NCBI GenBank assembly: GCA_033439255.1
Contig: CM065880.1
Span: 3,224,001-3,288,000, forward strand
Source: Hericium rajendrae
Lineage: Eukaryota > Basidiomycota > Agaricomycetes > Russulales > Hericiaceae
DNA: 64,000 nucleotides
Direction of reading: 5' to 3'
Shown here: positions 2,425 through 56,007 of the stretch, one piece after another
Layout of the letters: the number at the start of each line of letters is the position of its first letter
How positions within the stretch are numbered: position 1 is the first letter of the stretch
The notes under the pieces: model-generated
What the model saw: only the letters and a program-made list of their open reading frames with translations
What the model was told of the DNA's origin: nothing
Database searches by the model: none
Program-made: the position numbers and the translations under genes

Positions 2425-2435
2425 CTTGAGATAAT

Positions 2436-21865: not shown

Positions 21866-21944
21866 CAGGTACGCGGGAGCGTCGGCAGGCCCGTAGCCGA
21901 GAGCAACGAGCGCGCCGCGGCGGTAACGAGCAGTAGCGATGGCG

Positions 21945-23630: not shown

Positions 23631-23639
23631 CGCCGCGGC

Positions 23640-24470
23640 GCATCCCGCCGCCATGCTCGGCTACGCTCCTGCCCGCCGCACTTCCCGATGGGGGCGGGGC
23701 GGGGCGCGCCCGCCGCTTGCTGCCCGCCGCTGCTGCGCCTGCCATGCACCGGCTGCTCGACGCTGCCCGCCGCCGCCAGTTCTCACCGTGCCTGCCATCC
23801 CTCAGCGGCTCGATGCTGTACCTGCTGGCCGCCCCGCCGCTGCTGCGCCCGCTAGCCGCCCTGCCGCCGCTGTGCCCGCCGCTCGCAGGGCGCTTGCTGC
23901 AGCTGGCGCGCTGCTCCCCGGCCGCTGGTTCTTGCTGCCGCTGGTGGGCTACCTTGCCGCCGCCGCCGATTCCCGCTGCGCCCACTGGCCGCCTCACCGC
24001 TCGCCCCGCTGTTGCTGCACCGCTCGGGCGCTTGCTACCGCTGGCTGCGCCCACCGTGCACCGGCTGCTGCTGCGCCTGCCATGCATCGGCTGTTCGATG
24101 CTGCGCCCGCTGACCACCCCGCCGCTGCTGCACCCGCCGCTCGCCCCGCTGTTGCTGCACCCCTCGGGCACTTGCTGCCACTGGCTGACCCGCCGCTGCT
24201 CGCCACCATGCCTGCTGCTCTTTGTACCGGCAACGGGCTGGTCTGCCCTCGCCCGGCGCTCGTTGGATAGCAGCCTGCTGGTTCTCGGTACCAGCAGCGG
24301 GGCACGTCCACCCGTCCTCACCCAACGGTCGCTGCGACGCTGGTCGTTGCGCGCCCACCGGCCCCCATTGCATGTCCGCTCCTTGTTCCGCTGCGCGTCT
24401 GTCTCTCTTCCGTGCCGGCAGTGGGCTGGCCCACCAGCTTGTCATTGATCTTCCGTATCACTGTCGTCAT
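23640..24470. repeat. GC-rich subterminal block of the outer KDZ transposon
   Basis: Degenerate GCTGCTGCRCCNGC-type repeats between the terminal repeat and the transposase stop codon. The same placement is seen in the inner transposon. No gene supported. Confidence 0.6.
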
Positions 24471-24480
24471 GGTCTATTGA

Positions 24481-25290
24481 TCACAGACCACTTGGCCTGA
24501 AGCTGACGGTGTCCTCGTCCTCCTCGTCGATGAGGTAAGTGCTGTCGAGCTCACGCGATGCCGGGATGGGAATGGAGGTGAGGCGCGATACGACGTCTCC
24601 GTCCTCGAGCGCACTTGAGTCTCCGATAAAGGTAGTGGCTTCTTTTTGGACAATCGACCACGCTGCTGCGAAAGAGTGGGAAAGAGCTTGATACAATGCA
24701 ACTTGTTCAAGAGCAAAGGCGCGGAGACCCTCGCGAAGCTGCGGGGTGGACTGTGGTGGACTTTCTGCACGTTCTTGCCAGTGACATACAGTGTTTCCGA
24801 ACGAAGCCACGACAAGAGACATCTCTAACTTGAGCCAGCGCACTTCTTTGCGCCATCGTGCTGCGCGCGCGTGTGCCTTTGCCCATTCAACACGGACCGC
24901 TGTAAATGCGAGATCAGCTCCAAATCAATTAGTCAATTATATGCTACTTACCTTCGTGCATCACTGCATCGTCAGGACCCTCGGAGATGCCACCATACCA
25001 TATCCAAGATATGGTGCGATGTCCTTCGCCCAGGGCTCCAGGTTCCTCGTCCTGTTCCTCTTCACCTTCGTCATCGTCTTCGCCAGGTTGTTCGGGCATC
25101 AAACGTCCGACGTCGACGCCCTCGTCCTGCTCTTTCTCCAGCCGCCTCAATGTTGTGTCACTGAGACCACGTACATCCTCATCTTTCAGAGGGCGGAGAA
25201 TGTTGGTCCATGATGCATCGTTACCGACGAGTGCACCATAGCACACACGCGCATGTCGGTAACAATGCACACATGCCCAGGCTTTCATGA
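24481..25290 (-). pseudogene. KDZ transposase, outer copy, C-terminal part
   Basis: Begins (minus strand) VMKAWACVHCYRHARVCYG at the right edge and contains NILRPLKDEDVRGLSDTTLRRLE, an acidic stretch, RTISWIWYGG, an intron at about 24910-24955, VRVEWAKAHARAARWRKEVRWLK and the end SRELDSTYLIDEEDEDTVSF, stopping at TGA 24481-24483. It matches the C-terminus of the inner transposase along its length. Its first residues continue exactly from the N-terminal part that ends at 39053: removing the inner transposon and one 7-bp duplication gives an unbroken frame through AVLMKAWACV. Interrupted by the insertion, so inactive as it stands. Confidence 0.85.
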
Positions 25291-25480
25291 CACCAGTACC
25301 AGTACCCACAAAATAATGCGGGCCGGAACCACCCCGCAACAGCATTGCAATTCCTGCGGCTGCAGCCACAGCTAGCCGAGGACCTCCTGCCGCTCGCAAA
25401 ATAATGCTCCGTCTCCACGATGCATTATTTTGCGAGCCTGGGACTTTCTGGCTCGCTTCCACAACCTCCAGAAAAACATA
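25291..25480. repeat. Left TIR of the inner KDZ transposon
   Basis: Reverse complement of 38872-39052 with moderate divergence; carries several AAAATAATGC / GCATTATTTT motifs in both directions. Confidence 0.85.
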
Positions 25481-25489
25481 CCGCGCCAC

Positions 25490-26050
25490 CTCCCCTCGGC
25501 AATTCTGCACGCCCGCCCTCGGCAATTCTGCGCGCCCACCCTCGGCAATTCTGCGCGCCCGCCCTCGGCAATTCTGCGCGCCCGCCCTCGGCAATTCTGT
25601 GCACCCGCCCTCGGCAAATGCTCCGCGCCTCCCCTCGGCAATGCTCCGCGCCCGCCCTCGCCACCGCGCCACCGCGCATGCGCCCTCGCTGCCGCGCCGC
25701 CACCGTATGCGCCACCGCCGCATGCGCCCTCGCTGCCGCGCCACCTCGCATGCGCCCTTGCTGCCGCGCCGCCACCATATGCGCCACCGCCGCATGCGCC
25801 CTCACCGCCGCGCCGCCACCGCCACCACCGCCGCATGCGCCCTCGCTGCCGCGCTGCCACCGTATGTGCCACCGCCGCATGCGCCCTCGCCGCCGCGCCG
25901 CCACCACCGCCACCGCCGCATGCGCCCTCACCGCCGCACCGCCACCGTATGCGCCACCGCTGCATGCGCCCTCGCCGCCGCGCCGCCACCACCGCCACCG
26001 CCGCATGCGCCCTCACTGCGACGGCACATGCCCTTGCCCGCAGCACCGGC
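25490..26050. repeat. GC-rich subterminal block (left), 23-bp tandem units
   Basis: At 25497-25615 about five units near GCCCGCCCTCGGCAATTCTGC, then degenerate CGCCRCCGCATGCGCCCTCGC repeats to 26050. Open frames here run in four or more frames and are not genes. Confidence 0.8.
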
Positions 26051-26531
26051 CCGGGCACTCATCTGCAGCACTTCATCTGTGCTCTCATCAGCCGCATCTG
26101 CCACCGGAACCGCTGCACCGAGTCATCGACCCACTGTGCACATGGCCAGAACTGCTGCGCACTAACCCATTCCTGGAACTCCCCTCGATGCTGTATCACA
26201 GCTCAGAAGAAACTCCGACTCACCTACCGGGATGAACCAATCACGTGTTCATGCGCTATCTGATGCATCGCCAACCGGAGGGTCTTAGAGAGTCCAACTA
26301 CACAGCGGAACGTGCATCAGATAGCGCATGTACCTGTCAACAATCCTCCTAAGGTGGGTGATGCCACATTCATTACATAACAGCTGGAGTCTTTGACGAC
26401 TCCAGCAAATTGCATTGATCCAAGAACGATAGATAAGATTGACGCGCCGAGATACTGTGTATGAAGTCATAGAGATGGGGGAAGTGGTAAGGACCTGGAC
26501 AGAATCAAGAAAGCAAGATTCTGGCACAACA
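26051..26531. other. 3' flank of the companion gene
   Basis: Normal base composition; no motif-bearing frame. Probably the 3' UTR of the minus-strand gene ending near 26532. Confidence 0.45.
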
Positions 26532-29083
26532 TCAGCCCCTTCGCGAACGCTTGACAGCACCTGTGTCAATGGAATCGCTACTTACAAAATGAGCAAGTAA
26601 GCTACAACATACAAGGCGATCACATACCTAGGTGCCGCCCTTTTCTTCCCTTTATCTCCACCACCAACCACCACATTGTGCTCGACCCCCATTGCCACAA
26701 ACACCGCCTTCGTGTCGGAGACCGCATTTAGCCAGTCGCATTGTACGTTGTCCGGCAAGTCCTGGATCCGCTTCCTCCACAACGCGAGGTAAGCCATGAC
26801 ACTGAGGATCCCATTCTTGCCGAACTTGGAGAGCTTAGTCCAGTCGTGGGCTGCGGTGATTGATGTCCCAGCCCCAGTACGGTCAGCAAGGCGGTCGCTT
26901 GGTTGGAGATTGTCCCACCACTGCCAAAAGCCAGTTGGCAGTAGATCCAGCTGGAAGGACTTGCCGTTGACAAACTTGCTGTAGAACTTATGATAGACGC
27001 GGTCCCATTGTACCCAAAGACGTATGAGCTCCGGGCGACCGTTGGTAGGGAGTACACCATCTGAAGTCTGCACAACATATCAATAGCTGACGGTGAGCGA
27101 GGCACGAAGAGAACTCACCGGGAACCCCTTCGAACGCAGCAAATCAACGTACGCCGTGACACAGTCCACCCAAGCCTCCTCACCGCCCACCTGACTGAAG
27201 AAGAACACGGCTTCCTGTAGCCATTTCGGCCACTCGTCGTCGTCGACGCGGATTGAAGCCAAAGCAGATGACGGTATGGTACGAGGAACACCCGCAGAGC
27301 TCTTGCTGGTCGAAGCGACATGGGGAGGACGTGCAGGATGTGGGACGGGTGGGTTTCTCGGACTATCGGCATCGGATTGTGATGGACGATTGGAGGGGGT
27401 GCACCTTCGCGATCTGCATGTTCGCAGACGCCGTCGACGCCCCATGTCTGCCGACCTCCGAGCCATTCCCGCGTTCCTCCACTGACGCGTTCACATGCGC
27501 ACTGGAAGGGGTGTCGTAGATCGGCTCCGGCGTCAGTTCACGGTCCGGCAAGTTCGGCGGGGAGTGGACCATGGAGGCGGATGCAGAGGCTTTGGAAACA
27601 GACGTGGCTGCCAAAGTAGACGAGTGGGTCACTTCTGCGGATGTTGTAAAAGAATGATGACTGGAGAGGGTGGTAGTGGCAGCCGCCGCCGCTGCGGATG
27701 AAGGCGACGACGTGGACGCGTTGGCCCACGTCTCGCTAGAAGTCGGCTTCAAAGGGGAGGTGGCTCGTGCTTCGGCCGTTGACGATGAAGAAGTAGCATT
27801 CGCAGAAGCATTCGCAGTCAATGTCGCGATATCGGGGGACGGAGAAGAGGGCATCGTGCTGGTAGGGACAGTGGATGATGATGGTTGCGGATTAGATGAG
27901 ACTTCCGGCAAAGCCCGTTGTGCGCAAACCTCAGGTGCTATATATGGAAATATCGTTAATTAGGAAGTGAAAAAGCACCCGAAACAAAAGAAAACTCACG
28001 AAATACTTTGGTTGCAAATCGGACATGCGCAGCTGCTGCTGCGTCGAAACCAGGCTTATCGTACTCAGCCCACGTCTGCCGCACGATGCCCCCCGTTAAA
28101 CCGGAATGAATCACAAGTGATCCAATCGCTCCGCGGTCTTGCGGAATCGGACCAGACAGAAGGAGACAGGCTACCATCCCATATTGTCTCGAGACGTTGT
28201 CCACGACCGGTTGCAGATGCTGGAGCACCATACTATGGGCCCTGATGCAAAAGTCGTTAGTGAGGTGACGCGGAAGGTGAGATCAACCAAAAAAAAACGT
28301 ACTTGTGATACTCCTCGGCCGTCTTTGGATGTTGCAACAGCTGTTTGTAATCTGCCATCGCAGCCTTGTAGTTCGCCTCGACTATCGCGCGGATCTCTTC
28401 CTTGATTTCCTCGCTTTCGAGCCCGTACTTCTGCCGTGTTAATTCAGTTTGAAACTTGAACTTGTCCACAGGGATCGTGCCGGCCGACCTGGCCTCATTG
28501 ACGATTGCCGCATATTGCTCGTCGACGGAGGCTTTAACGCGGGAGTCATAGTATTTCGTCGAATAAACTTGCCATGCCGCCTCTCTCCTCGGCGGTGCCA
28601 GGGGGGCGTCAACAATGAACGACTCCTCCACGCTGTTTTCCGGTGCTTTTACCAGCTTTTTGCCATGATGGCGGAACCAATTGCCGATTTTCTAGAAGTC
28701 CCACATATCAGGAATAAACTTTTCATTCAGACAGGAAAAATGGAACCCACCTCATGGACCTCAGTATACGTCGCCTGACGTGCCTTGATCGTGTCCTCGT
28801 CCAACTCGTCCGTGTTGCCAATAAAGGCCATGGTGTCGAGATTTGTCTCCGGCGGGTCATCGAGCTCAACAGCCGCGTCTTCCTCCAAAGGGAGCACCCA
28901 GCCGTACTTGAGAAACCAGAGCTTGGTGGTGTGGGTATAGAAATCGCCTCGATCGCGGGCTTGGTGCCACTTCATAAGGCGAGAGTCGAGGAATACATAT
29001 TTAGTCCCTTTTGCCCAGGAGTTTCGTCCCGGTCCGCGCCTGGTGATCGTGTTATTGGACGCCTTCTTAGACTTTCTGGCCAT
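26532..29083 (-). CDS. KDZ cargo companion protein, unknown function (inner copy)
   Basis: Starts at ATG 29081-29083 (MARKSKKASNNTITRRG). Recognisable blocks: WAKGTKYVFLDSR, YTHTTKLWFLKYGW and DDPPETNLDT in exon 1; PPRREAAWQVYSTKYYDSRV and YKAAMADYKQLLQHPKTAEEY in exon 2; then VVDNVSRQYGMVACLLLSG; a Ser/Ala/Thr-rich linker (about 27370-27900); and a C-terminal domain with WPKWLQEAVFFFSQ, GFWQWWDNLQPSDRL and LAYLALWRKRIQDLP. Introns at about 28705-28750, 28255-28305, 27960-28010 and 27075-27120 fit the phases; near 27400 the reading moves frame, by an intron or a frameshift I could not decide. The last exon probably ends at 26532 after a basic tail. A diverged partial homologue lies at 47969-48928 next to the same partner gene. 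No known fold recognised; the basic N-terminus suggests nuclear location. Confidence 0.7.
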
Positions 29084-29329
29084 GAGTTGACGGTGAGGCA
29101 GAGGAAGTGGGTGATCTGGTCAGATGAGCTGGCACGAGTACGCGAATCCATCAGCTCTGTCTTCGGCAATTGTTCGACAATTCGGCACTTCCCGGTCATT
29201 GTCAAGATCTTAGATTAGATTGCATCCACTGCAGATCAATGCATTGTCAACAAGAAAGTAACACAGAACGCAAAGCAACAAGTAAAGCAACGATAACAGA
29301 CATAGCGACTACGGAAATCAAGAAATATT

Positions 29330-31088
29330 CTAAATTTGCCTCGCCCTTCTCACCAAACCTTCCTGGAGACGCAAAGCCATCCACTGCACAGCTTGTCGAT
29401 GAGTCGGGAAACTGATGTGCTTGTGGCCAGATACTCCATGTATCTGACTTGAACATTCTTCCCTTGTTTATGTCAGTACAGTGCCATAACACGGATAGAA
29501 AGTGAATATCTCACCAGGTTGGGTATATACCTGGATTTAGACCGCAGGCAACAGCATAGAATTTTTTGGACTCAAACGGTTCCATCCCGGAGCAGCCAGA
29601 CAAGCTCTGAAACGTGTCATAGGTCCAGGTGCTTTGGCGGTAGGCCGCATTGGGAGTCGGGTAGTACGTGAAGTGTGGAGAGTTCGACTGGTAAGTTGGG
29701 GGAGGCGACGACGATGCAGCACCTGGATCCTGACTGAAAGCTGAGCCCGGGCGAGGAGGAGACGGTGAACGCGTGTGCTGGGAGTCAGGTGCAGGTCCAG
29801 CATTGGGGTCTGGGGCAGACGTTGCACCAGTGCGTGCAGCTGGCGACTCATGCAGGTCTGCAGCAGGCACTGCACCTGTATCTCCTCAGAGCACTCCACT
29901 GGTGTATGGAGTGGTTGCGGAACGAGTCTCTCGGGCAGGCACATAACGAGTCTCCTGGGCGGGCGTGGAACGAGTCTCCTGGGCGGGTGCGGAACGAGTC
30001 TCCTGGGCGGGCGCGGAGCGAGTCTCCTGGGCGGGCGCGGAGCGAGTCTCCTGGGCGGGCGCGGAGCGAGTCTCTGGCGCAGGCGGTACACCGATATCGG
30101 GGCGGGGTGAGGATCTGACGCGGCCACGGGAGGGCGGAACAGGAAGGGAATGAGACGTGCGGTTTAGTGGAAATGAACCTGGGACATGCGGGGTATCTGT
30201 TTCTGAGGCAGACGTGGACTCGAGACCGAGACCGGACAACTGAGCAGGAAGGGAATACAAAGATGGTGTCGGGTGACGAGCGGGTGACCGAGATACAGAT
30301 GCCGATGAAACAGCAGTGCGAGGAATGGAGGGCGATGCTGCAACTGATAGAGGAGGGATGGTAGACTTGCCATGAGCTGCAGATGCCTGGACATGAGGCG
30401 GCACTGAAGATGCAGGGCGAGGCCCTTTCCGAATTGGCGCGACCGAAGGAGAGGCCGTCGCGGAGACATTCAGGGACGGCGCAGGCTTCATGCTGCGAGA
30501 CGAGGCAGACGAGCGGCTGGGAGCGGTCGCGTATTCCGATTCAGTGGCTGTATCGGTGGCATCGGAGGGGTAATAGCCCCAGAGAGAGTTAGAACTGGCC
30601 TCTTTGGAAGGAGTAACGTCGGATTCGGTGACGACGTCGCTCCAGTCATCATCGTGAAGCTCTTGCACGAGGCCTCGATGGCGGGCAGCAAGAAGATTGT
30701 CGTAGGCAGCCACCTGTGTGTCGTAGGTATCGTAGAAGGCCTGCGGGATGCCACGTGTCATGCCCTCCGCCTCCCAACTATGGAGACCTTTGTCAAATTG
30801 GGAACTCCAAAAGAGGGATAAAGCACTCACCGATGCGCAAAAACGCCTACCTTCCGGCCCACAAAGACCGCAAACCACTTCTGTCCAACTGCTTGTGGAA
30901 GCACTCCATTTTGAGACCGTTTGAAGTCGGAATCTAAGCTCGCTCGTGCCATGTTGGATGCTGTGACGTGGAAGCTATCGTCGGAGATGGAAGGTGCTAG
31001 CAAAAATAAAGTGCTCACCCAAGTCAGAGGTCGGACTGCCCAGGATGCCGACCATGTCCCACATGTCGTCGTCCTCAGCTGCAACCAT
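29330..31088 (-). CDS. Protein with two viroplasmin/RNase H1-N domains (inner copy)
   Basis: Starts at ATG 31086-31088 (MVAAEDDDMWDMVGILG); exon 1 ends at 31019. The first domain-like unit is AVGQKWFAVFVGRKVGVFAHR, intron, then WEAEGMTRGIPQAFYDTY. A long Ser/Pro-rich linker follows with six 8-residue APAQETRS repeats (24-bp DNA repeat, about 29920-30070). The second unit is a classical viroplasmin domain, KKFYAVACGLNPGIYPTW, intron, WEECSSQIHGVSGHKHISF, ending at TAG 29330-29332. Such domains bind RNA/DNA hybrids or double-stranded RNA in RNase H1. No RNase H catalytic domain follows. An in-frame TGA at 29886-29888 lies between linker and second domain, so this copy may be broken or spliced around it. 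The domain name does not imply a virus here. Confidence 0.75.
29920..30075. repeat. 24-bp coding tandem repeat, about 6 units
   Basis: Plus-strand units near GCGGAGCGAGTCTCCTGGGCGG, encoding APAQETRS on the minus strand. Confidence 0.9.
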
Positions 31089-32393
31089 GTGCCCTTTGCG
31101 ACAACGGGGGAAAGGAGCGAGACAGAAACGTGCCTCTACTGGGGTCTCACGATGACACGCCACAACCGGGTCCGAGCGAAGGTGCTTCTTCGGATCTATC
31201 CGAAACAATGCGATAAGGAGTACGCAAATGATAAGACGATAAGGACTCATGACTATGACGACACAAGCCCATCCCGTTGTCCGAGATTCCCTCTTACTAG
31301 ATGCTTTTTTTCCGGTACTTACCTGTCATTAGCATTCAGAAGTAAGTACTCCAATATTTCTGATAGAATCCGTAACGTTCATGAGTGTCTCTTCCGACAT
31401 TTAGCTGGAAATTCAACCCATATCGTCAAGATCGACATTTTGACGATGATCCGGAGCTGCATTGTAGGACGAATGATACATAAAGTACGTCGTAACAGTC
31501 ACTGGATATGACATTCGTCAACTGAATCGCTTTTCGTCGCTGTATAGCATATCGGAAGGCAGTCCTCGTCGTGTTTTCGCGGTGGTTTTCGGCTTTGCAA
31601 CCGTACTATGTCCCTGTCTCCACTTCTCATTTACCACTATCTACCACATATCTGTATGCTGAACTACATTCAATAATCAATGTTTTCGGAGCTAGATTCA
31701 TGTGCCGGAGTTTGGTAGATACAACGATCGAGAAGTACTTGAATAACGGGTGAACGAGTAAAGTGTGATAACGAAGCCTAACTTACAGTTTATAACATAC
31801 AGACTCCCAAGATGATTGTCACTTTTTGTATTATAAGGTTAGATGAGTAACTCGTGTTACGCACTATGAAATTTACACTAATATACTAGCGGGGGTACGA
31901 ATTGAGAGCTGTACGGCTACTGGTGTGTATACATGTGCTTCATGCGTGCACTTGCAGCTCGAGTAACCCAACCCAACACAAGTGGCTGCACGCGCGTGCC
32001 ACAAACACCGGCCTTCTGCAACCGCCACCTCGACCGCGCTTCAAGTTCGACCACCACCTCTACCACGTTTCATCGTCGTCATTCTTTTCTACTTCCGTTC
32101 TTTTTATCGTGTCTATTTCCACCTCAGTCTTGGTCTCGATCGCAGGGTCAGTCACCCGTTCGGTGTCCACTCGGTACGTCCTTTCTTTCTGCCCGCTTCA
32201 GTTCATGTTGTGTAGCGTGCCTCTCCAGGCCCTCTGCACGAACGGGGCTTCACTCTTTCTGACCATAAGCTTACATGTTCTATTACCTACCCAGCTTAGC
32301 CTCAACGACGAGGCGCAAAGGTTCATGGCGGGGAAGGTGCATTTCTGCCGTCCACCTATAGATTACAACTGATTTCTTTTACTGTATACGCGT
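31089..32393. other. Divergent intergenic region (viroplasmin gene / TET gene)
   Basis: 1.3 kb of ordinary composition between two genes that point apart, so it should hold both promoters. CT-rich stretches precede the TET gene (about 32090-32200). No coding exon recognised. Confidence 0.5.
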
Positions 32394-33987
32394 ATGCTTC
32401 AGACACGCTCAGGGCGTGAATTCTCCGCGTACATAACCACCACGATCCCTGTTCCCGACTTCGACTTAGCCGCATTTGTTCAAGCCGGGGTTGGAATCCA
32501 GGACAGTTTCGTGCCCGCAGCCGACGACTCGCACCCGCAGCCGTTGGACCTTGACCCACCTAGAGCATCCCATCCGGAAGTTCCTCCACCACCTCCGTCT
32601 CCCGTTCCGCTGTCTCAGCACCACTCATCATCCGCCAACATCTCCAACGGTGACGCGCCATGCCCTCAAGGCGAAGGCGCAGCTGCTCCCTTCTTTGCAC
32701 AAAGAGAATATCAGAGACAGTGTCGCATCCGCCGTCGTCAGGAGACCAAGGAGCGATATGGTCCCCTCGGCTGTGTCACTAGGTCTTTGGTTGCAAAGTT
32801 TGCCTCACCATCCCCATGCATCGTGCCTGATGACGCACGCCAACTGCCTGTTGCTGAAGGCGCGTTCGTTGCGAAATGCGACCCTCGGCAGCACCCCTCG
32901 AAGCAAATATACCCGCTGAACGAATTATTGGGTGGGTTAAACTTCCAATATAAACAGTGGGATGGACGGTATGTGACTAGTCCCTGTAGGCCGCGCTTTG
33001 TAGCACTAATTCTCCTGCAGAGGAAATGGGGCTGTTGTTGATAGGATGGGGCGTCTTATTGTCGGCATGCCTGCGCAGCCGTCCGACCCAACGTGGTCAT
33101 TCCTCATGCAGGATGGTTGCAAGGCGATGTGCGAAACAGAACACTGCAGTTTCTCGAAGGCGCAGCGTGATCACGGGCGCGGCCGATTTCCTTCATTGAC
33201 GACTGGATTTTCGTATGGCGGCGGCCAACAGGTATGTGTATTTCATGCCCTTGGGACCAATTTTGAACAGATTTTGCAGCAGCCAATGAATTTTTCTCAT
33301 ACTTCGAAGCAGCACATCAGCGCGATCCAGTGTTTGCGCACACACCCGTGTTTTGTCCGCCTAGCAGGTCACAACAATCGTGCGTATACGTCGCTCACAA
33401 TCTACGATCTAATGACAAGTCCGGCCACAGGTGCCTTCTCTATCTATGCGCCAAAACTTTTTCGGCATTATAATGAAATTGTTGACGCAATACAGGCATC
33501 CGACCCGAGCCTGGAGAAACCGTTCAGCAACAGCGTATTTCCTGCCGCCACCTTCAACGTTGGAAGCCAGACTGTCACGAAGAAACACCGGGACTCGTTT
33601 AACGTCCCTTATGGGTGGTGTGCGATCACCGCGCTCGGTGATTATGACCACACTAAAGGCGGCCACTTGTACCTGTGGGAGCTAAAACTAGTCATTGAAT
33701 TTCCGCCCGGAAGCACAGTGTTTATCCCGTCTGCTGTCATCAGCCATGGGAATACCCCGATTTCCGATGGAGAGGTTAGACACTCTTTCACTCAATTCTG
33801 TGCTGGTGGCCTGCTGCGTTGGAAATTGTACGGCTTTCAAAGCGAGGAGGACATGCGGATGAGAGATCCGGCCCTCGCTTTAAAGGTGGACTCCGGCCAA
33901 TTTACCAGATGGTACGAGGGTTTGGGGCTGTTCTCAAAGATTGACGAATTATATGCGGATAACGAACCGTGGCTCTTCCCTAAGTAA
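32394..33987 (+). CDS. TET/JBP-like 2-oxoglutarate, Fe(II)-dependent dioxygenase
   Basis: Three exons: 32394-32968, 33021-33231 and 33280-33987, 497 aa, phases consistent; the second intron is 48 bp and could be retained in frame. The N-terminal third is Pro-rich and disordered (PPPPPSPVPLSQ). The catalytic double-stranded beta-helix carries an HxD motif in KKHRDSFN (H365, D367), then YGWCAITALGDYD, KGGHLYLWELKLVIEFPPGS, the distal His in SAVISHGNTP (H418) and the 2-oxoglutarate Arg in GEVRHSFTQF (R429). All metal and cosubstrate ligands are present. The family oxidises 5-methyl-pyrimidines in DNA; fungal members are expanded and linked to KDZ transposons (established). It lies 188 bp upstream of the KDZ gene on the same strand, inside the same TIRs. 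Likely role: altering methylation marks on the element (inference). Confidence 0.85.
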
Positions 33988-34051
33988 TATACAGTACGAG
34001 TCTCGTATACCCTGGTAGTAACTTACGCTAATCCCTTTTGCATAATAACAA

Positions 34052-34130
34052 CGCGGTCACGTTACCGATCAACAAGAGCAAGCGCTTAACAGCGCGATCA
34101 CGTTACCGATCAACAAGAGCAAGCACTGGC
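34052..34130. repeat. 40-bp direct repeat, 2 units
   Basis: GCGRTCACGTTACCGATCAA... occurs twice with a period of about 40 bp in the 188-bp gap between the dioxygenase and transposase genes; a possible regulatory or transposase site (inference). Confidence 0.8.
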
Positions 34131-34174
34131 TAGGTGTGACATGCTTTCGTCTGTCCTATGCACCTGCTCTAGCC

Positions 34175-37100
34175 ATGAATACACGACGCTTCAATGCCCC
34201 GCTTGCCCAACACCAATTCAAACGCACTCGTTTCAAGCCGACCACGGACTCTTCCACCTCTATTCCTTACCATATTCCTAATGCCGCGCCTGTTACCCAA
34301 CTCTCCGCATCTTCCGACAGTCGTCGCCTCGTCACCCGACAAACACCCATTCCTATTGAGGACACACAGGCATCTAGCAGTGGAGGACAGGGTGTCGAAG
34401 AGGATCTGGGCACCGGCGAGCTCGACGGTGTGGACCGGATTGAGGGCTTGAATGAGGACCGTTCTGCCGCAGAACCGGGCTTGACTGCGAGTAAGTCCAA
34501 CTCGGGTGAGTGGGCTTTTATTTTTGTCTAAGATTCGAATATTACTCACTTTCTACCAGGACTATCCAATCGACACGTGGAGGGCATACTGCGACGAGTA
34601 TCTCCACGAATCAATTCGATTGGAAGGGCGGGGGATGTTTCTATCCCAAACGATGTGTCCAGATTGCCGTCTGGAAGAGGGATCCTTCCGTTGTAGGGAG
34701 TGCATTACCTTCGACCTTGTATGCAAGAAGTGTATGGCTCGTCAGCATCGACGTACGCCATTACATGTTATCGAGGTATGTACTTTCATCTATCTGAAGA
34801 TCTGGCATTGACAAGTATCTAGAAATGGAACGGCACCTTTTTCGAACGAACCACACTGAAAGCTGTCGGTCTCGTTGTCCAACTCGGTCACCTTCCGGGC
34901 GTGCCGTGTCACTTTCCAGAGCCGGGACCGAGCGACTTCGTCATCGTCCATGGAAACGGCATCCACCACGTCTCAATTAACTTCTGCGGCTGTCAGCTGG
35001 CGAATCCTATCCCACGACGAGTGCAGCTTATGCGAGCTGCTTGGTGGCCTGCTACGCCAAAGGAGCCATCATCTGCAGCAACATTCTCCGTTCTGCACCA
35101 GTTCCATATGATGACATTAGAAGGCAAAACGAACGCGACGGACTTTTACAATGCGATTGCCCTCCAAACGGACAATACGGGCCTGAAACCCCCTCCAGTG
35201 AGTGCCTACGTGCATCGGTTTTTGTGATCATAACTCATTTACGTGCAGGATCGACTTGCTGCCTTCATGAATATGGTTCGTGAATGGCGTTACATCAAGG
35301 GAATGAAGCACGCTGGGCGTGGCCACGAGCCTGGCAAGATTGTCGACACCAAGCCAGGCGAAGCTGCGGTTCGATGTCCAGTATGTCCAAGACCGTCGGT
35401 CAATATGCCGGAGACGTTAGTGGGTGTTCCGGAGGAGGATCGGTATGTCAGCCTTGTCAGTATAGCTTCCTCAGGTTAACAGAGTATTTGTAGATTCATG
35501 TACCAACAGGTGTTCTTGATAGATGCAAATTTCCGTATGAAGAACCGCTATCGAGCTAGTCGTCATACCGACGTTAGCTTGACTGGAAACTCCGCGTATT
35601 TCATCGACCAGAACATCTACCAGAAATATATTCTCAACGCTGCTAATCAGGATGATGTACGTGCTTTTGGCTACCAGTGGTATTATGGTATTCAACTCTA
35701 TTCCGTAGATAAGTACCTGTACTGGATTTGCCGCCCTCGCAAATGCCAATACCAAACGCTCGAAGGGTATGAGGTCGACGGGTGTAGGGGCATGTACATG
35801 TCGACACGAGTTCTGGTTGCCGAACGGGGTCGGGGACTTACAAAAGGGTGAACGGTGCGTCATGAATGCTTTGCTTATATTGGACCGCGTTTCTGATATT
35901 GGCGTAGATATTCAAATATGGATTTCATCTTCTTCAGTGCACACTCCCATCACCGGAACAAGAACGGTATCGCGTCTTACGACATCGTGTGCCAGTGGTG
36001 CACCGGGCTAGCTGATCGTCTATGGGGCTTACCCGACGCGATACGTCCGACCAGCCTTCCGGATCTCCAATTTGCTGTGCCCAAATTTCACCTCCCAGCC
36101 CACGGCCCTGCATGTCAAGCACCGTATTCTCTCAACTTCATGGTCGGTGCAGGAAGGACCGATGGAGAGGGCGTGGAGAGAAACTGGGCGCACTTGAATG
36201 GTGCTGCCGCCAGCACGAAGGAGATGGGGCCCGGTGCTTGCCAAGATACCCTCAACGATCATTGTGGCCATGCAAACTGGAGGAAGACCATGAATCTAGG
36301 TAAGTAGACTACAGTACAGTTTGGACATATGCTGATCTAAATCTATGCTAGGCCGCTCATTGCTGAAACGCATGGTCTCTGCTGTATCGGAGGCTATCCG
36401 GCACAGCAACATTTTGCAAGAATTCAACCGTGTTGTGGAGCGGGAGAAACCTGGTGCAGTCGCAAAGTGGGAGCAGATGGTAGTGGCCTGGGAAGAGGAC
36501 CATTCGAAGCCGTGTCCGTATAAGCTTCCAGAGTCTAGTGAGCCATCCTCGTCTTCTCTATAGCAGGGTACTGACCTTCTTTCCCAGGTTTCGATATAGC
36601 GACCATCCGTCAACAGCTAGCAGCAGAAGACGACATAGGCCGCCAACGCAGTGGTGGGAGAGATTCCGCAGTCAATCCTACGTCGTTGGGGTTCGGCGAA
36701 TTTGTGGCCTTGGCTATGGATATTGAGGAGACACAGTGAGTTATGATACTTCAGTATCTGGTGAAGTGCGGGGCTAATCATCAACGTGAAGACGTCTTCT
36801 TGTGAGGGACTGCACGAAAATCAAGGATGGGGCTACGGTGTCCCAAAATGCGTCGCTTCAAGAACGACGCACCAGATTGAGCAAAAAGATTCAGCGTTTT
36901 TCCTCCCACGAGAAGCGTCTGTTCCCAACGCTGTCCCCCGGCACTGAGCTAAATGCTGATCACCCGGAACTCACCTCCCTTTCCTTACCTTCCTCTGTCA
37001 TGGACCCACACCGAACGGCATATTATCCGCAAGAGATGATCGACGCGGAGACCAAGCTTCGGCTTGCAGAGGCTTCAGAGGCCTTGGACAAAGTACGGTA

Positions 37101-37991
37101 TCATCTCCGGGTTTCGTCATATGTGCACCGCTATAAGACGAGTAATGTGGTTGGACAAGGCCCGAATACGCGAGCACGTACTACCCTGAATGCGGTGATC
37201 GCGAAGGCTTGGGCGGCAGTGGGAAGGTACCGCCATGCACGGGCTTGCTATGTGACGCTTGCTGGTGAGGACGGAGAATGGGCTCGAACCTTCCAGCCCC
37301 TAAAGGAGGAGGATGTCCGTGGCCTCAGCGATACCACTCTCAAGAAACTAGAGGCGGAAGAGGAAGGCGACATTGATGTTGAGGCATTGGTGGCTGGGGA
37401 AGGGAGTGAGGGATGCCGTACGGTTTCTTGGATATGGTATGGGGCGGGGGTGGGGACCGGGGCTGGTATCCAGGCAAGAGAAGACCGTACCTTGCATGAA
37501 GATAAGGGCCTCCTCATCTACAAGATCCATGTACCATTACTAAAACATCTTCGTCTGCAGCTGTTCGAGTTGAATGGGCTAAGGCTCGTGCGCGAGCTGC
37601 TCGCTGGCGTGAGGAAGTACGGTGGCTTCGGCAGGAGACCGCATTCGTCATCGGAACATTCCACTTCGAGGTGCAGCAGTGGTGCCGCCGTGCGGGTGAC
37701 GCGTCATCGTCAGATCTGCAGCTCGCAGACGGCCTCACCGCGTACGCCCTGGAGCATGCGCACCTTTACCGGCAGTTAATCTCGTCCTTCTCCACCTCAT
37801 GGAGTGTTGCTCTAGGAGAGGCTGCAAAGTACTTGGGTGCTCCTCTGGCAGAGCATGAAGACGTCGTCTCCCGGCTCGACTCTATCCGACTCCCAGCATC
37901 TCGAGAACTCGACAGAGTCTACTTCAATGATGAGGAAGACACGGACCGGTTCATTCACCAAGACAACAGTGATGACGACGACGACGACTAA
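34175..37991 (+). CDS. KDZ-family transposase with Cys-cluster N-terminus (inner copy)
   Basis: Starts at ATG 34175 (MNTRRFNAPLAQHQFKRTRF), the same start as the outer copy (MSNTRAFNAP). At least nine short introns, for example 34506-34559, 34772-34821, 35199-35249 and 36302-36352. The Cys cluster reads CPDCRLEEGSFRCRECITFD, LVCKKCMARQHRRTPLHVIE and continues with VSINFCGCQLA, the CxC type found on KDZ transposases. The core has LIDANFRMKNRYR (about 35518), GVGACTCRHEFWLPNGVGDL, ASYDIVCQW (about 35972), PKFHLPAHG and TDGEGVERNWAHLN (about 36160); D, D and E in these blocks are the probable catalytic triad. The C-terminus has coiled-coil segments and ends DSDDDDDD-like at 37991. No break was noticed. 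It makes the element autonomous and probably mobilises relatives with the same ends. Confidence 0.9.
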
Positions 37992-38139
37992 GTCGTTCCA
38001 TAGCTGGTGCCGGTACGGTGTATCTCGGTAGGCTTTTGGTTCCAGACATACATCCATCTGTGTAGCTGGTCTTTCACAGACCCTCCTGGTGGGTGTGTGC
38101 CTGGGACCATCTTGCTGATCCGTGATGGAAGGAGGCCTG

Positions 38140-38860
38140 AAGCAGTACCGGAGGCAGAGGGGATGACGGGCAGCAGCGGAGAGCAGTGCGCACAAGCGCT
38201 GGCAGCAGCGGTGGTGAGTGATGCCCAGCAGCATTGCAGAGCGGTGGCCGGGAGCAGTGCGCAGTGGCGGCGGGCAACAGCGGCGGCCAGCATTGCCGAG
38301 CGGCGGAGGAGCAGCGCGCGTAGGAGTGGCAGCAGCAGCGGCGGGCAGCAGCATGCACAAGCGCCGGTGGCAACGGCGGTGGCGGTGGCGCGCAGCAGCA
38401 GCACGCAGCAGCAGCGCGCAGCCGCAGCGTGCAGCGGTGCGCATAAGCGCTGGCAGCAGCAGCGTGCAGCGGTGCGCATAAGCGCTGGCAGCAGCAGCGG
38501 CGGCGGCGGCGGTGGCGCGCAACCGCACGCACAAGCGCTGGCGGGCAGCAGCGGCGGCGGCAGCGCGCAACCGCACGCACAAGCGCTGGCGGGCAGCGGT
38601 GGTGGCGGCGGCGGGCGGCAGCCGCGCGCACAAGCGCTGGCGGGCAGCAACGGTGGCGGCGGGCGGCAGCCGCGCGCACAAGCGCTGGCGGGCAGCAGCG
38701 GTGGCGGCGGGTGGCAGCCACGCGCACAAGCGCTGGCGGGCAGCAGCGGTGGCGGCGGGCAGCAGCCGCGCGCACAAGCGCTGGCGGGCAGCAGCGGCGG
38801 GGAGCATTGCCGAGCAGTGAGCGGGTATTCCCGATGGTGTCGGCAATCAGGGTAGTATTT
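38140..38860. repeat. GC-rich subterminal block (right), about 54-bp tandem units
   Basis: Units around CACAAGCGCTGGCGGGCAGC plus GGTGGCGGC runs, about six good copies between 38510 and 38800. Mirrors the left GC-rich block. Confidence 0.85.
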
Positions 38861-38871
38861 ACTGCATAGAA

Positions 38872-39052
38872 TATGTTTTTTCTGGAGGTTTTGGAATATC
38901 ATGACCTGCCCAGGATTTCTGGGCAGACAAAATAATGCGGCCTACATATGGGCCGCATTATTTTGTGCACGGAGGCGGCTGCAGCCGCAGGAATTGGAAT
39001 GGGTTTGCGGCGTGATTCCGGCCCCATTATTTTGGGGCAACTGGGACGCCTC
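38872..39052. repeat. Right TIR of the inner KDZ transposon
   Basis: Inverted match to 25291-25480; contains the palindrome-like AATGCGGCC...GGCCGCATT at about 38933-38958. Confidence 0.85.
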
Positions 39053-42000
39053 TTCATGAGCACAGCAGTTTGCAATGCCCTCACACGAGTGTTCGGCTCC
39101 TGACCAGTGACATTTTTTGTCTTGTAGCGATGGACGTACGATGATATGCGGAGGTGATGCCGGACCTTGTCCAAAACTTCATGGGCTTCCGCATATCGGA
39201 GCTTCTTCTCGGCGTCGATGATGTTTGAGCCATAGTACACTACTCGGGCGGCGGCATCGAAGGACGATGGAAGGGACAGACGAGTGAGCTCGGGGAATTG
39301 AGAATTGAGTGTCGTGCTTGACGACGACAGCGTTGGCGCGAGCCGCTTTTCTTGAGCGCAAAAGCAGACAATCTTCTTCGAGAGCTTGTTCCTTCGCTCT
39401 TGCAACGTTGCGGCTTGAGACGCGGTGGCTTTGTCCTTGAGGTTCTTCGCGTCCCTTATCAGAAGACGTCTACGCAAAGGCAATCAGCGTAATTCTGAAG
39501 GATGCCTGAATGTTATACTTACTGTGTCTCTTCAATGTCCATCGCCAAAATAATAAACTCGCCAGGGCTTGATGGTGACGCGGTCGCTTCAGAGTCATTA
39601 TTATCTGCACGACCTTCATCTTCATTGAGATATGCAGCGAGCTCCTGCCGGACTGTTGCGACCCGAATTGCTAAAATAGCATTAGCAAAGAAATAATAAA
39701 AGCAAGATAGCAAATTTACTTGAGGTTGGAAGATCATACGGACAGGGTTTGTCGTGATCATCCTCCCAAGCGAGGACCATGCTTTCCCACTCTTGCATCG
39801 TTCCGGGCTTGTGCCGCTCCAGGGTCACGTTGAAGTCTTGCAGTAGTCCCGCATGACGAATGGCCTCCGGGATCGCCGTGACCATGCGGCGAAGTAAAGA
39901 TCGGCCTGAGAAGAATGAAATTAGACAGGGAGAGAGATGCGAAAACATGAGCACGTACCCATATTCACAATCTTCCGCCAGTTAGCATGACCACAGTGAT
40001 CATTTAGAGTATCCTGTCGGGCTCCAGGGCCCATCTCTTTGGTGCTGGCTGCAGCTCCATTGAGATGCGCCCAGTTTCGCTCAACGCCTTCGCCGTCGGT
40101 CCGCCCTGCGCCCACAATGTAATTGAGAGAGTACGGCGCATGACAAGATACGCCGTGCGCCGGAAGATGAAACTTGGGCACGGCAAACTCAAGGTCAGGC
40201 ATGTCGGAGGGCCGAATATTGTCAGGTAGAGCCCAAATCCGATCGATCAAGCCATCACCCCACTGACATGCGATATCGTAAGATGCGAGACCTTTCTTGT
40301 TGAGGTGGTGAGAGTGGGCACTGAAGAATATATAGTCCATATTACAATAGCTGCAGCAATCGCTCGTCAATATATATTAAGATAATGACAAACGGTACGT
40401 ACCGTTCGCCTTTCTGAAGATCGCCGATGCTGTTGGGTAGCCAGAACTCATGACGACATGTACAGGCTCCCACCCCCGTGCTCCTCAACCCTTTTGAACA
40501 CTTCTTATTCGCGTTCGCAAGCGCCGCGAAGCCGGTACATGTACTGATCTAGGGGTATGCAATAATTAAGCCTCGAAATCATGGAGCGATGTGATAAGGA
40601 GATACGTACATCATCTTGGGTAGCAGCATTCAACACATGCTTTGTGTACTCGGTTTGATCCACAAAGTACGCGGTATTTCCGGTGAGACTTTCATCGACA
40701 TGACGACTGGTCCGGTGGCGGTTCTTCATGCGAAAGTTGGCATCAATGAGATAGATCTGACGATACATAAATCTATAGGATAATATCAATATATCATTGA
40801 GATATTAGCCATGCCAACACTGCTCACCTATCATCCTCAGGGATGTCATCGAGCACTGCCGGCACGTTGACGCCTAGCAGCGGACAGGCTGGGCATCGGA
40901 CAGCAATTTCACCGGCCATTGTACCATCCATCTTCGTCTCGGTGTGACCGCGGCCTGCGCGCTTCATGGCTTTGACATATCGCCATTCCCGGACCATGTT
41001 CATGAAGGCCGGCAATCGATCCTAGTACCATTTGTCAGCCAAAATTTTATCGCAGAGAAGCCAGTACCTACCGGTGGAGGATACAATCCCGTGTTATCCG
41101 TTTGCAGCAAGAGCATGCTGTAAAAATCTGTCGCATTCGTCTTGCCTTCCAGAGTCATGAGATGAAATTGACGTAGAACGGCAAACGTCGCCGCAGTCTG
41201 CGGTTGAAGCGCAGTGGCCGGCCACCATGCATTCCACAGCAATTGGACGTATGGAGGAGGCCTCTCGGCCAGTTGGCAGCCACAGAAATTAACCGCGACG
41301 CGATGGAGCCCGTTGACATGGATGACCCAAAAGTCGTGCCCGCAATCTGGAAATTGGCACTGTTGCCCAGGAGGATGGCCTAATTGTATGACGACGCCAA
41401 GGTCGTACAACGTGGTGCACTTGAAGAACCCGTTTTCCCACATCTACTCTCTGTCAGTAAAAGCAAAGTGACTGAGTAAGCACACGTACCTCAACGACGT
41501 GCAACGGCAGCCGACGATGACGACGTGCCATGCAAGGTCCGCATACCAAATCCAGCCCAACACAGTCCAGACAGCGCACAAGCGCGTCCCTCTCGTGGCA
41601 ATCGGGGCAGACCTGATATGTGTAATTGCCACGGCCCTCGAGATGGAGACACTCGTCTAGGTACTCATTGCGAAAACGCCGCCATGTATCTAGAGGATAA
41701 TCCTAGAGATGATGAGTAAGGGTAGGTAGTTATGCTCAAGACGGCACTTACAGAATTCAGGTGTCGCTTCCCCAACACAGAAGTAGAACCCTGGCCATCC
41801 GCCCCGTGCCCATCCATATCCTCCCCAACATCCTCCCCTTCGTAACCATGGTCTTCTTCGTCAACTTTATCTTCGGATTCCTTAGGTATGGCGACCGGCT
41901 TTTGAATGCTCACAAGGCGACGGTTGTCAGCAGATGCTGAGAGGTGAGTGACAGATGCAGAATTAGGGACATAGTACGGAATATGAGCAGACGACGATGC

Positions 42001-43524: not shown

Positions 43525-44408
43525 ATGCCTGGCGACGTTGACCCCGATCTATTTGACATCACCTCCGAAGAACTTTCTTTCATACTTGCTCCCTATGATT
43601 CTTCGGCCGACTCTGAAATAGGTGAGCTCCTTTTTCGTTTGTGTGCTATCTTGTTTCTTACGAGCACCACGTCAGAGGCCCAGATGGCACGGATGAACAT
43701 ACGCAACGAACCAATGCTCAGCGACAATAGATTCCTTCCTCAGGCTCTCGGCGATGGCTGGTTTGCGGTTTTTGTGGGTAGGAGCGTCGGCGTGTTCTCG
43801 AAACGGTACGTTCGTAGCTGTTGAGTCTGCAGGCGTGTATCTTCATTCGTGCCCGCTACAGTTGGGAGGCTGAGGGCATGACCCGTGGCGTGAAGGACGC
43901 TTTTTACTCAGCATATCGCACAGAGCTCGACGCTACCCTTAATTTCAATGCTGCTGCACGTCAAGGCTCGGTATACGAGATTCCAGACGCCAGTTCCCCG
44001 TCGCCTCCGAATGATCTGTACGGCAGCGATGCATCCAGATCATCTAATCGTTCCCTTCCTCAAGCTGTCGGAGACTCCTGGTTTGCAGTTTTTGTAGGTC
44101 GTGGGACAGGCGTAGTCTCTAAAAGGTGTGTTATCGTCGTTCGCTTGTTGCTATGTACTGATCGTTATTGATCTTCATGTAGATGGGAAGCTATGTCTAT
44201 GACACATGGCGTAACTGACGGCTTTTTCTCAGAGTTTCGGACTGAGAGCGATGCCTCAGTAAACTACATGGCAGCCCGTGCGCAAGGTTTCACGGAAGAG
44301 CGACCAGATCAAGCCAGCTGCGCACCCGCAGTTAGCGAATTGAGTGATATCACCAGCGAAAGCGATATCTCGTACATGGGATCGTCCGTCTCCTTTTCCA
44401 TGCGCACA
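43525..44408 (+). pseudogene. Viroplasmin-domain gene, outer copy, 5' part
   Basis: ATG at 43525 (MPGDVDPDLFDITSEELSFIL). First unit: ALGDGWFAVFVGRSVGVFSKR, intron (about 43808-43860), WEAEGMTRGVKDAFYSAY. Second unit: AVGDSWFAVFVGRGTGVVSKR, intron (about 44127-44181), WEAMSMTHGVTDGFFSEF. So this copy has one more N-terminal unit than the inner gene, with an intron at the same point in each unit, as expected from exon-wise duplication. The reading stops at 44409 where a TIR element is inserted; the last domain lies at 46886-47706. Confidence 0.75.
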
Positions 44409-46885: not shown

Positions 46886-47706
46886 AGATCGGTCTTCAGC
46901 GTTTGCCACTGCGCAGGGTAGTACACCCCCCTCTCCATCTCCTCTTCGAGGTGAACCCGAGCGCTTCTGCGAGATGTCACCGCCGTCTTCTCCGCTCCAT
47001 CAGTGTAGATATCCACGTGCTGCGTCATCCCTGCCTCCGACTGTGACTGCCACTCATCCTAAGGCACCGGGGCCGTGCCCAGCTTCATCAGTGCCTCCGA
47101 CTGCGACTGATCCTCAGGCATCGGGGCCTAACCCCCGTACCTCTCTGGCATCACGTCCCCGCATGTCATCATATCCGGCACCGCCAGTGGCATCGTCCCC
47201 ATCAGCGACAAGGCCTCATCCGTCCTCTAGCTACACTCGTCCTACGTCTTCTGCACCACGTCCAGCATCCGCAACGCATGCAGCACCATCTGCACCGCTG
47301 CCGTCGTCTTCGCATCTGCCTCCCAGGTACTCATCGCGCGCGCCCGAATTCGAAACGCAGTATCCCAACCCGCTTCGTCACAACGGAGATCTTCATCGGT
47401 TCACCGGCTGGATTTTCGACATTCTTCAAGACATCTCTCATTGTCCTGGCATGACCGAGTTTGATTCTCGTAAATACTATGTCGTGGCGTGTGGTCGGCA
47501 TCCCGGTATATACGCGACCTGGTAAGTCTCTTACGGCTCAAAAAATGATTGGAAAGACTGACTTGATTTACAGGGGCGTTACGGAGGTCGAGGTACATGG
47601 TGTCCCGGGCAGGCTTTTTAAAAGCTTTGTGTCGTATGAAGAGGCAATGGATTGGCTCCTCGAGCGCCTTGCGCAGGGATCCGTGCGTAGTGCGAGCATC
47701 GTCTAA
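46886..47706 (+). pseudogene. Viroplasmin-domain gene, outer copy, 3' part
   Basis: Pro/Ser-rich linker (46974-47330) followed by DSRKYYVVACGRHPGIYATW, intron 47522-47573 and GVTEVEVHGVPGRLFKSFVSYEEAMDWLLERL, a textbook viroplasmin/RNase H1-N domain, ending at TAA 47704-47706. It corresponds to the second domain of the inner gene. Separated from its 5' part by the element at 44409-46885. Confidence 0.8.
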
Positions 47707-47968: not shown

Positions 47969-48928
47969 ATGGCCAAAGGCAAAGGGAAAGGCAAAAGGCA
48001 GGATAAGGATGAACCGCCTCCCAAACGTGGTCCCCCTGTTTGGGCAAAAGGAACTAAATGGGATTTCTTTGTCGTCCGCATACCCCAGTATCACGAGGCG
48101 GTTGCCACGAAAACAACGGGCCCCTTCTATACCAGGACCACCAAGGTGTATTTCCTCAAGTATGGGTGGGACCTGCCATTCGACAAAGACTCGCCCACAC
48201 CGCTCGAAGATCCGCCGGAGACGAATCTTGATTCACTGTCTCCGATCGGGAACCGGGACACTTTAGATGCTGTGGAGGTTGAAAGGCGTCAAGGTCTTTT
48301 TGACACCATGCGCAAAGTGAGTTCCACATTCATCGCTCGATCGACCATCATCTGACGTCCTTCTAGAAAATAGGTGGCTGGTATCGTCATCATTCCAACA
48401 AGCTTCTGAAGACACCGGACAATAGCGCGCCCGATCCTGCACCCGTGGTTGTGCCCGCCCCCCTGAAACCTCCGAAGAAAGAGGCTGCGTGGCAGGTCTA
48501 TTGGAAAAAGTACTTCAATTCACGCGTCAAAGATGAAGCGGAGTTGCTCTACGCTGCTGCAGTCAAGAAGGCTGAGGATGCTGGTGCAACTCTCCCAGAC
48601 CGGTTCGGCTTCATGGCCGCAATCACAAGAGACAAGTATGCTGCCGAGGATTCTGCGACGATCACCGAGATCCAACGAATGGTCGAGGAACACTATGCCA
48701 CGGCGATGACGGAGTACAAGAAGTATTTGGAGCGCCCCAAGACCGGGGAGGACTATCAGCGGTAAGTCTGTACGCTAAGATCGTCGAGATGTATTCTGAT
48801 AATGTTATAGCGGTCTTAATATGATCTACTCCCATGTTCAGCCTATCATCGAAGGCATCGCCATGCAATATGACTTAGTCGCATCGCTGATAGTGTCCGG
48901 TCCTATGCCCGTGGAAGCCGGGAAGGTC
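47969..48928 (+). pseudogene. KDZ cargo companion gene, outer copy, 3' truncated
   Basis: ATG 47969 (MAKGKGKGKRQDKDEPPPKRG). Blocks shared with the inner gene: WAKGTKWDFFVVR, YTRTTKVYFLKYGWDLPF, EDPPETNLDSL, intron, PPKKEAAWQVYWKKYFNSRV, YKKYLERPKTGEDYQR, intron (about 48762-48810), PIIEGIAMQYDLVASLIVSG. The frame is open to 48928, where a TIR element starts; the linker and C-terminal domain are missing. Shared block order with a quite different linker and basic tail shows the two copies are old relatives, not a recent duplication. Confidence 0.75.
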
Positions 48929-55980: not shown

Positions 55981-56007
55981 GATATATCAATCACCGGCGG
56001 CGGCTGA

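Follow-up and report, generated by a model that had tools for sequence, protein, structure and literature searches.

Why should a mushroom DNA transposon that already carries a transposase and a DNA-modifying enzyme also carry a viroplasmin-domain gene and an orphan gene? The question is raised by a 64,000-nucleotide stretch of Hericium rajendrae (assembly GCA_033439255.1, contig CM065880.1, positions 3,224,001 to 3,288,000, forward strand; hereafter the window). In it, a KDZ transposon that we call the inner element holds four genes: a KDZ transposase, a TET/JBP-like dioxygenase, a protein with viroplasmin/RNase H1 N-terminal (RNase H1-N) domains, and a companion protein of no known family. 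The window also holds a diverged KDZ relative, the outer element, in which viroplasmin and companion genes follow one another as they do in the inner element; an accident of one insertion therefore does not account for the extra pair. As a whole, we read the inner element as a Kyakuja-like KDZ transposon that bears TET together with a conserved accessory pair, a reading to which we assign a probability of roughly 0.7. TET-bearing KDZ elements were known before; what is new is that the accessory pair is conserved across two KDZ copies while TET differs between them.

Borders and genes of the inner element

The borders proposed in the preliminary description of this DNA proved exact to the nucleotide. 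The target duplication TTCATGA is perfect, and although this 7-mer occurs nine times on the plus strand and three times on the minus strand of the window, only the two flanking copies abut the inverted repeats. The repeats comprise an inner pair (25320-25367 and 38977-39024, 48 nt, 88%) and an outer pair (25296-25321 and 39022-39047, 26 nt, 81%), which appear as a single blastn match when the window is compared with itself (25299-25367 and 39044-38977, 69 columns, 85.5%, E = 1.4e-12). Decayed similarity, judged by eye on the alignment, extends for about 180 nt, and the match is poor over the outermost 16 nt or so, where the element begins and ends with CA..TC. The strongest proof of the borders is the restored target: joining the flanks with a single copy of the duplication yields an uninterrupted minus-strand KDZ transposase frame, which aligns with the inner transposase over 93 residues, gap-free across the junction. 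Thus, the inner element jumped into a related transposase gene.

The ends also share a motif. The 9-mer AAAATAATG (equivalent to CATTATTTT) occurs six times in the window, counting either strand, and none of the six lies outside the two end regions of the element. Each end has three, one within the inverted repeat itself and the other two in a hairpin that follows inward, and AAAATAATG is likely the motif that the transposase would recognise and bind. G+C-rich tandem arrays (0.4-0.5 kb, units of 13 to 85 bp) lie inside the repeats at either end.

All four genes named in the preliminary description fall within this one bounded element, and the families to which the genes belong point to a mushroom-type fungus. 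The transposase exceeds the curated Pfam cut-offs for both KDZ (E = 1.6e-36) and the CxC2 zinc domain (E = 7.5e-41), and its model runs for 970 amino acids from exon 2 (34560) to the stop codon, with no internal stop. Frame-keeping introns with consensus donor and acceptor are available at seven of its ten splice junctions. The translation contains LIDANFR, SYDIVCQW and GVERNW, whose D, D and E, respectively, are the presumed catalytic acidic residues. Just upstream of the gene, a 41-bp unit occurs twice (34046-34127, 93% identical).

The dioxygenase gene has three good introns in a model of 480 amino acids; an alternative three-exon model of 496 amino acids is likewise open. Its TET ligand set, an HxD...H iron site and a distal arginine, is complete (H348, D350, H401 and R412 in the 480-residue model). 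The same residues had been given numbers 17 higher before, presumably from another intron model.

The viroplasmin protein has two RNase H1-N domains, as first described, and the long linker between them is of low complexity and contains a tandem repeat of 24 bp. Both lie above the Pfam cut-off for Cauli_VI (PF01693; 21 bits), the N-terminal domain with 22.4 bits (E = 1.5e-4) and the C-terminal domain with E = 1.1e-16; this cut-off was reached by all four viroplasmin pieces that were scanned (22.4 to 61.2 bits). Pfam detected no RNase H catalytic domain in the frames of the inner gene.

The companion, which had been called unknown and basic, merits both words. Its model encodes 737 amino acids (isoelectric point 8.9) with no internal stop, although the 3' end is uncertain and the junction of exons 4 and 5 was picked among several options. 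No family in Pfam or NCBIfam matched it at the curated cut-off (best E = 0.022, to an unrelated name), and its profile found no useful match among PDB sequences. In an AlphaFold model of exon 2 made from a two-sequence alignment, three long helices were predicted (mean predicted local distance difference test score, pLDDT, 69.9; predicted template modelling score 0.46), but this model matched nothing in the PDB better than E = 3, an HMG box ranking 18th (E = 8.6). A resemblance of the companion to HMG boxes, seen by eye, was rejected: hhalign gave E = 0.33 and a probability of 0.2%, about the same as two control comparisons (E = 0.45 and 0.30), and no HMG family appeared in Pfam at E up to 10.

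The accessory pair in a diverged relative

The outer relative was detected by tblastn of the inner proteins against the window. Its transposase pieces are 42-81% identical to the inner transposase (best E = 4e-74). The pieces of its viroplasmin protein, which has three RNase H1-N domains, are 33-65% identical (E = 3e-19, 1.5e-13, 4e-11, 6e-10 and 4e-6), and those of its companion 36-47% (E = 8e-37, 1e-27 and 6e-9). The three genes have identical order and relative orientation in the two copies. The preliminary description had taken the pair to be part of the element, a view that would suffer if other full-length members consistently lacked these genes; the relative found here has both, which favours it, for one relative whose ends were not located. 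TET is a different matter. Outside the inner TET gene, tblastn gave no TET hit below E = 1.1 in the window, and a search for a TET relic in the outer intergenic stretch (42080-43526) scored 43, which is within the range of 40 shuffles (mean 37.6, maximum 50).

Have the two accessory genes been kept as proteins? In codon-aligned comparisons of the inner and outer copies, the companion differs at 0.33, 0.31 and 0.61 of first, second and third positions (254 codons), and the viroplasmin gene at 0.39, 0.31 and 0.56 (197 codons, a count in which one inner stretch was set against both outer N-terminal domains). One of the five viroplasmin pieces has 0.54, 0.29 and 0.63. The transposase is biased to the third position in six of seven pieces (0.54-0.72 at position 3), the piece without bias being kdz4, which spans an intron (0.42, 0.21 and 0.41). 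Because protein-guided alignment favours a third-position pattern, we added alignments made from DNA only. These gave 0.29, 0.33 and 0.61 for companion exon 2, 0.38, 0.35 and 0.55 for companion exon 1, and 0.29, 0.26 and 0.53 for a short viroplasmin piece in its coding frame (30-31 sites each). Since differences concentrate at third codon positions, the accessory pair is conserved along with the transposase. For this pair of copies, the codon pattern indicates that both genes have been kept as proteins since the two elements parted, over the parts that can be compared, and suggests that they are long-standing parts of the element. The pair would then predate the split of the inner and outer elements, and TET would have been either acquired by one of the two lines or lost from the other.

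It could be argued that both accessory genes are mere passengers, picked up from the host by chance and of no use to the transposon. Gene capture by fungal elements does occur, a viroplasmin-domain gene is reported from the Pleurotus helitron helpo1.3 (PMC4289320), and the inner viroplasmin gene has an in-frame stop. Yet this explanation needs either two captures or a long, useless retention to account for the same pair, in the same order, conserved at the protein level, and we consider it quite improbable.

Possible nucleic-acid contacts of the viroplasmin and TET proteins

If the pair belongs to the element, what might the viroplasmin protein bind? The preliminary description had suggested RNA/DNA hybrids and, with DNA-base oxidation in one mobile unit, control by the element of its own chromatin or transcript state; spelled out, the viroplasmin protein would bind the hybrids (R-loops) that the element forms, and TET would oxidise the element's DNA. 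The domain family is indeed that of the RNase H1 N-terminal domain, and the C-terminal domains of the inner and outer proteins match an RNase H1 chain in the PDB (1qhk, E = 1e-6 and 5e-7). We aligned the five RNase H1-N domains of the window (two inner, three outer) with the RNase H1 chains 3bsu and 1qhk, which we take to be the human and yeast enzymes. The occurrence of the domains in two or three copies also recalls an engineered three-copy R-loop sensor (PMC10639055). In the human domain, W43A or KK59/60AA is reported to compromise or remove hybrid binding, and RNase H1 with W43A/K59A/K60A/D210N is in use as a non-binding mutant (PMC10639055, PMC6868509).

The window domains do not keep these contacts. 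None of the five has both lysines of the K59/K60 pair and one has a single lysine, whereas 1qhk has both. The equivalent residues are IS in the inner C-terminal domain, KS in the outer C-terminal domain, and DT, SA and SE in the N-terminal domains. The equivalent of W43 falls in the aligned column in two domains and one column later in the other three. Against hybrid binding there is also the inner N-terminal domain, for which a PDB search at E up to 1 gave no RNase H1 chain. TET, on which the chromatin part of the proposal depends, is missing from the outer copy. The profile PF01693, common to RNase H1-N and caulimovirus viroplasmin, extends to the window domains, but the lysine pair does not. 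We conclude that the window domains probably share the RNase H1 fold, that canonical RNA/DNA-hybrid binding is not expected of them, and that they more likely bind some other nucleic acid or a protein. The proposed joint control of chromatin and transcripts through hybrids is accordingly a poor prospect, very unlikely in our estimate.

The chemistry of the TET protein was compared with that of CcTet from Coprinopsis cinerea, for which residue roles are described (PMC11040006). CcTet positions were assigned in the inner TET by ungapped offset from the ligand anchors, not by an alignment with CcTet. The two enzymes have in common the HxD motif, the second histidine and the 2-oxoglutarate arginine, together with Thr323 and Phe391 by offset. 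They differ, again by offset, at Gly331 (Asn in the inner TET), Asp337 (Cys), Arg321 (Thr), Ser330 (Phe) and Arg393 (Ala). Asn at the Gly331 position is what human TET2 has there (Asn1387; PMC11040006). The iron motif of the inner protein is HRD, an HxD and hence not the HxE of the PE type; the marks of the CcTet-like AG type are Asp at 337 and Gly or Ser at 331, where the inner protein has Cys and Asn by ungapped offset, which points tentatively against that type. If the offsets are right, the inner TET would not be a CcTet-like enzyme for 5-methylcytosine and N6-methyladenine at the places compared. No PDB chain matched the spliced inner TET at E up to 10, and a single-sequence AlphaFold model of its core (pLDDT 43.8) was too poor for structural matches to have meaning.

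Place among known elements and in the window

TET-bearing Kyakuja (KDZ) transposons of Agaricomycetes have been published (Kojima 2025, PMC12730594), in keeping with the earlier statement that KDZ with TET/JBP is established in basidiomycetes. The inner element resembles them in combining KDZ and TET/JBP in one element, in its 7-bp duplication and in its CA start. The TET-bearing Laccaria families Kyakuja-1_LB and Kyakuja-2_LB are described with 7-bp duplications, CA..TG ends and no inverted repeats, and 8-bp duplications are given for Zisupton and Zisupton-1_PGr (Dileera) (PMC12730594). Unlike the TET-bearing Kyakuja elements as described there, the inner element has viroplasmin and orphan genes besides TET; the main text of that paper contains no mention of viroplasmin, RNase H or ribonuclease H1. 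It does describe extra genes in other TET-bearing superfamilies, an alpha-kinase in IS3EU and an unnamed third protein in PHISTA (PMC12730594).

Other KDZ elements offer partial likenesses. The transposons KDZ1-KDZ3 of Cryptococcus neoformans have a KDZ transposase and inverted repeats, are 9-11 kb long and were shown to move (PMC12810828). They differ from the inner element in having CxC1 rather than CxC2 and in their duplications (8 bp for KDZ1, 4-8 bp for KDZ2 and KDZ3), and the transposase alone is described for them in that source. Inverted repeats in KDZ elements are, as such, not new. In Pleurotus, a CxC2 cluster stands ahead of the KDZ domain in every intact transposase gene of this superfamily (PMC7641404), and the inner transposase is alike. 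The large copy of helpo1.3 is about 10.7 kb longer than its sister copies, and the extra stretch, described as a helitron gene capture, lies between inverted repeats and carries a gene with a viroplasmin domain as well as one for a putative nuclease/transposase (PMC4289320). This stretch may be a nested KDZ element of the inner kind, which is a guess.

We found no link between viroplasmin and KDZ in the open-licence papers that we consulted. Iyer et al. 2014, reportedly the work that named KDZ, could already cover companion genes. One paper (PMC5718144) mentions both 'KDZ' and 'caulimo', in unrelated places. Pattern searches of viral contigs for KDZ, companion and TET relatives gave 0, 1 and 4 matches, and those of genome contigs for KDZ relatives gave 9; none was confirmed by tblastn, as is to be expected of collections without fungi.

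Several observations weigh against our reading. The inner element has inverted repeats and ends in TC, while the two Laccaria Kyakuja families are described as lacking repeats and ending in TG (PMC12730594); of the marks of that lineage it shows the 7-bp duplication, but neither the CA..TG termini nor the absence of inverted repeats. Since inverted repeat motifs are reported for KDZ/Plavaka elements of Marasmius (PMC8290104), however, absence of repeats may not define Kyakuja. Tet_JBP is the best Pfam family for the dioxygenase, both spliced (E = 4.3e-4, 20 bits) and as an unspliced frame (E = 1.3e-4, 21.7 bits), and neither score reaches the curated threshold of 34.9 bits. Of the two inner RNase H1-N domains, the N-terminal one is barely above its own cut-off and, as noted, without an RNase H1 match in the PDB. 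The comparison from which we call the pair fixed and TET optional involves two copies in one window, that is, a single relative; its own ends were looked for and not found, so that the label 'outer element' rests on gene order. As the outer companion is truncated, with no remainder found to the right of 48928, the C-terminal half of the companion is outside the comparison.

The integrity of the inner genes is a further concern. An in-frame TGA (29888-29886) interrupts the viroplasmin gene, and frame-keeping GT..AG introns can be drawn over it only with non-consensus donors. Three of the ten transposase junctions are weak: the first has no option with both consensus sites, the ninth has a good donor but not a good acceptor, and the donor of the tenth is weak. 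For these reasons the inner copy may be partly decayed. The element had been called complete, which holds for its borders but not for every gene. Taken further, the same defects, together with the surrounding fragments of reverse transcriptase, RNase H/integrase and Plavaka-like elements, could mean that what we see is a cluster of extinct, nested elements whose four genes survive as immobile remnants. The sharp borders and perfect 7-bp duplication speak against this, as do the open frames of TET (480 amino acids), the companion (737) and the transposase from exon 2 to the stop (970), and the shared gene order would be left unexplained. We regard it as unlikely.

Coordinates of the inner and outer elements are collected in Table 1. 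The outer viroplasmin gene is split by an insertion of 2,476 bp with CATCTGGAAAAACAGG..GGTTTTTCCTGATG ends and a 2-bp AG duplication, which comes close to PlavakaB (CATCA..TGATG ends, 2-3 bp duplication; PMC12730594). On the matches found, transposable elements are densely nested throughout the window. Reverse transcriptase fragments lie at 2221-4215 (plus strand) and a gypsy-type RNase H/integrase region at 57819-60038 (plus strand). A unit of about 1.7 kb (21936-23633) has inverted repeats (236 columns, 89%) around a retroelement RNase H fragment on the minus strand, and a further copy of its repeat lies near 60730-60823. Long direct repeats are found far apart (19290-21113 and 61566-63375, 79%; 21202-21853 and 63360-63990, 76%), and 16735-16875 is identical to 19146-19286 (141 bp). 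A fragment similar to the C-terminal domain of ribosomal protein S3 (E = 1e-8) overlaps a 296-bp tandem duplication (97%) at 55800-56389 and 56008-56748, adjoining satellite-like arrays. Rfam, at gathering scores, and ARAGORN gave no match within the window.

Table 1. Features of the inner KDZ element and its outer relative (window coordinates; a point in the strand column marks features without strand).
Feature	Coordinates	Strand	Basis or details
Whole inner KDZ element	25291..39052	.	13,762 bp; target duplication, inverted repeats, restored target frame
Target site duplication, left copy TTCATGA	25284..25290	.	Read from sequence
Target site duplication, right copy TTCATGA	39053..39059	.	Read from sequence
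Left terminal inverted repeat region	25291..25480	+	Hairpin 25392-25437; three copies of AAAATAATG/CATTATTTT
Right terminal inverted repeat region	38870..39052	-	Hairpin about 38926-38968 (read from sequence); three copies of AAAATAATG/CATTATTTT
Left subterminal G+C-rich tandem arrays	25493..26019	.	23-bp unit, then 41-44/85-bp units
Right subterminal G+C-rich tandem arrays	38388..38797	.	13-, 35- and 48-bp units
Companion (orphan) gene	26582..29083	-	Exons 29083-28751, 28691-28303, 28241-28000, 27937-27503, 27447-27119, 27067-26582
Viroplasmin/RNase H1-N gene	29314..31088	-	Exons 31088-31019, 30960-30831, 30777-29515, 29462-29314
In-frame TGA, linker between the two RNase H1-N domains	29886..29888	-	Gene model
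TET/JBP-like dioxygenase	32394..33987	+	4 exons, 480 amino acids, no internal stop
KDZ transposase with CxC2 zinc domain	34175..37991	+	Pfam matches; exon 1 to 2 junction uncertain
Outer KDZ transposase gene, 3' part	24448..25290	-	tblastn and joined flanks
Outer KDZ transposase gene, 5' part	39060..41702	-	tblastn; first exon to about 42.1 kb read from sequence
Outer viroplasmin gene, 5' part, two RNase H1-N domains	43525..44409	+	tblastn, Pfam
Plavaka-like insertion splitting the outer viroplasmin gene	44410..46885	.	CATC..GATG ends, AG duplication
Outer viroplasmin gene, 3' part, last RNase H1-N domain	46886..47706	+	tblastn, Pfam
Outer companion gene, truncated after about 48928	47969..48928	+	tblastn

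How might such an element work? We propose that the inner element is a DNA transposon of the KDZ superfamily, Kyakuja-like and equipped with TET, that moves by cut and paste. Its transposase, with its CxC2 domain, would most likely recognise the ends through the repeated AAAATAATG and insert with a 7-bp stagger; the borders are observed, the binding and the reaction inferred. By analogy with published TET-bearing elements and CcTet, the TET/JBP-like enzyme would oxidise 5-methylcytosine on or near the element and so weaken silencing by methylation. The viroplasmin and companion proteins, as the conserved accessory pair of this KDZ lineage in the two copies seen, may aid mobility or expression of the element as nucleic-acid- or transpososome-binding factors, for which we see even odds.

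Viroplasmin-domain and orphan genes are abundant in mushroom genomes. A bolder extension of our reading, which we consider unlikely, is that the viroplasmin and companion genes, rather than TET, form the fixed accessory module, a second layer of anti-silencing or a transpososome factor, so that more than one silencing mark would be attacked and the viroplasmin and orphan genes of mushrooms would largely be parts of KDZ elements. The nested insertion supplies exact borders and a diverged relative on one contig. If the pair proves to be KDZ machinery, a transposase with TET is not the whole equipment of these elements, and unannotated fungal genes would gain both an origin and a testable role.

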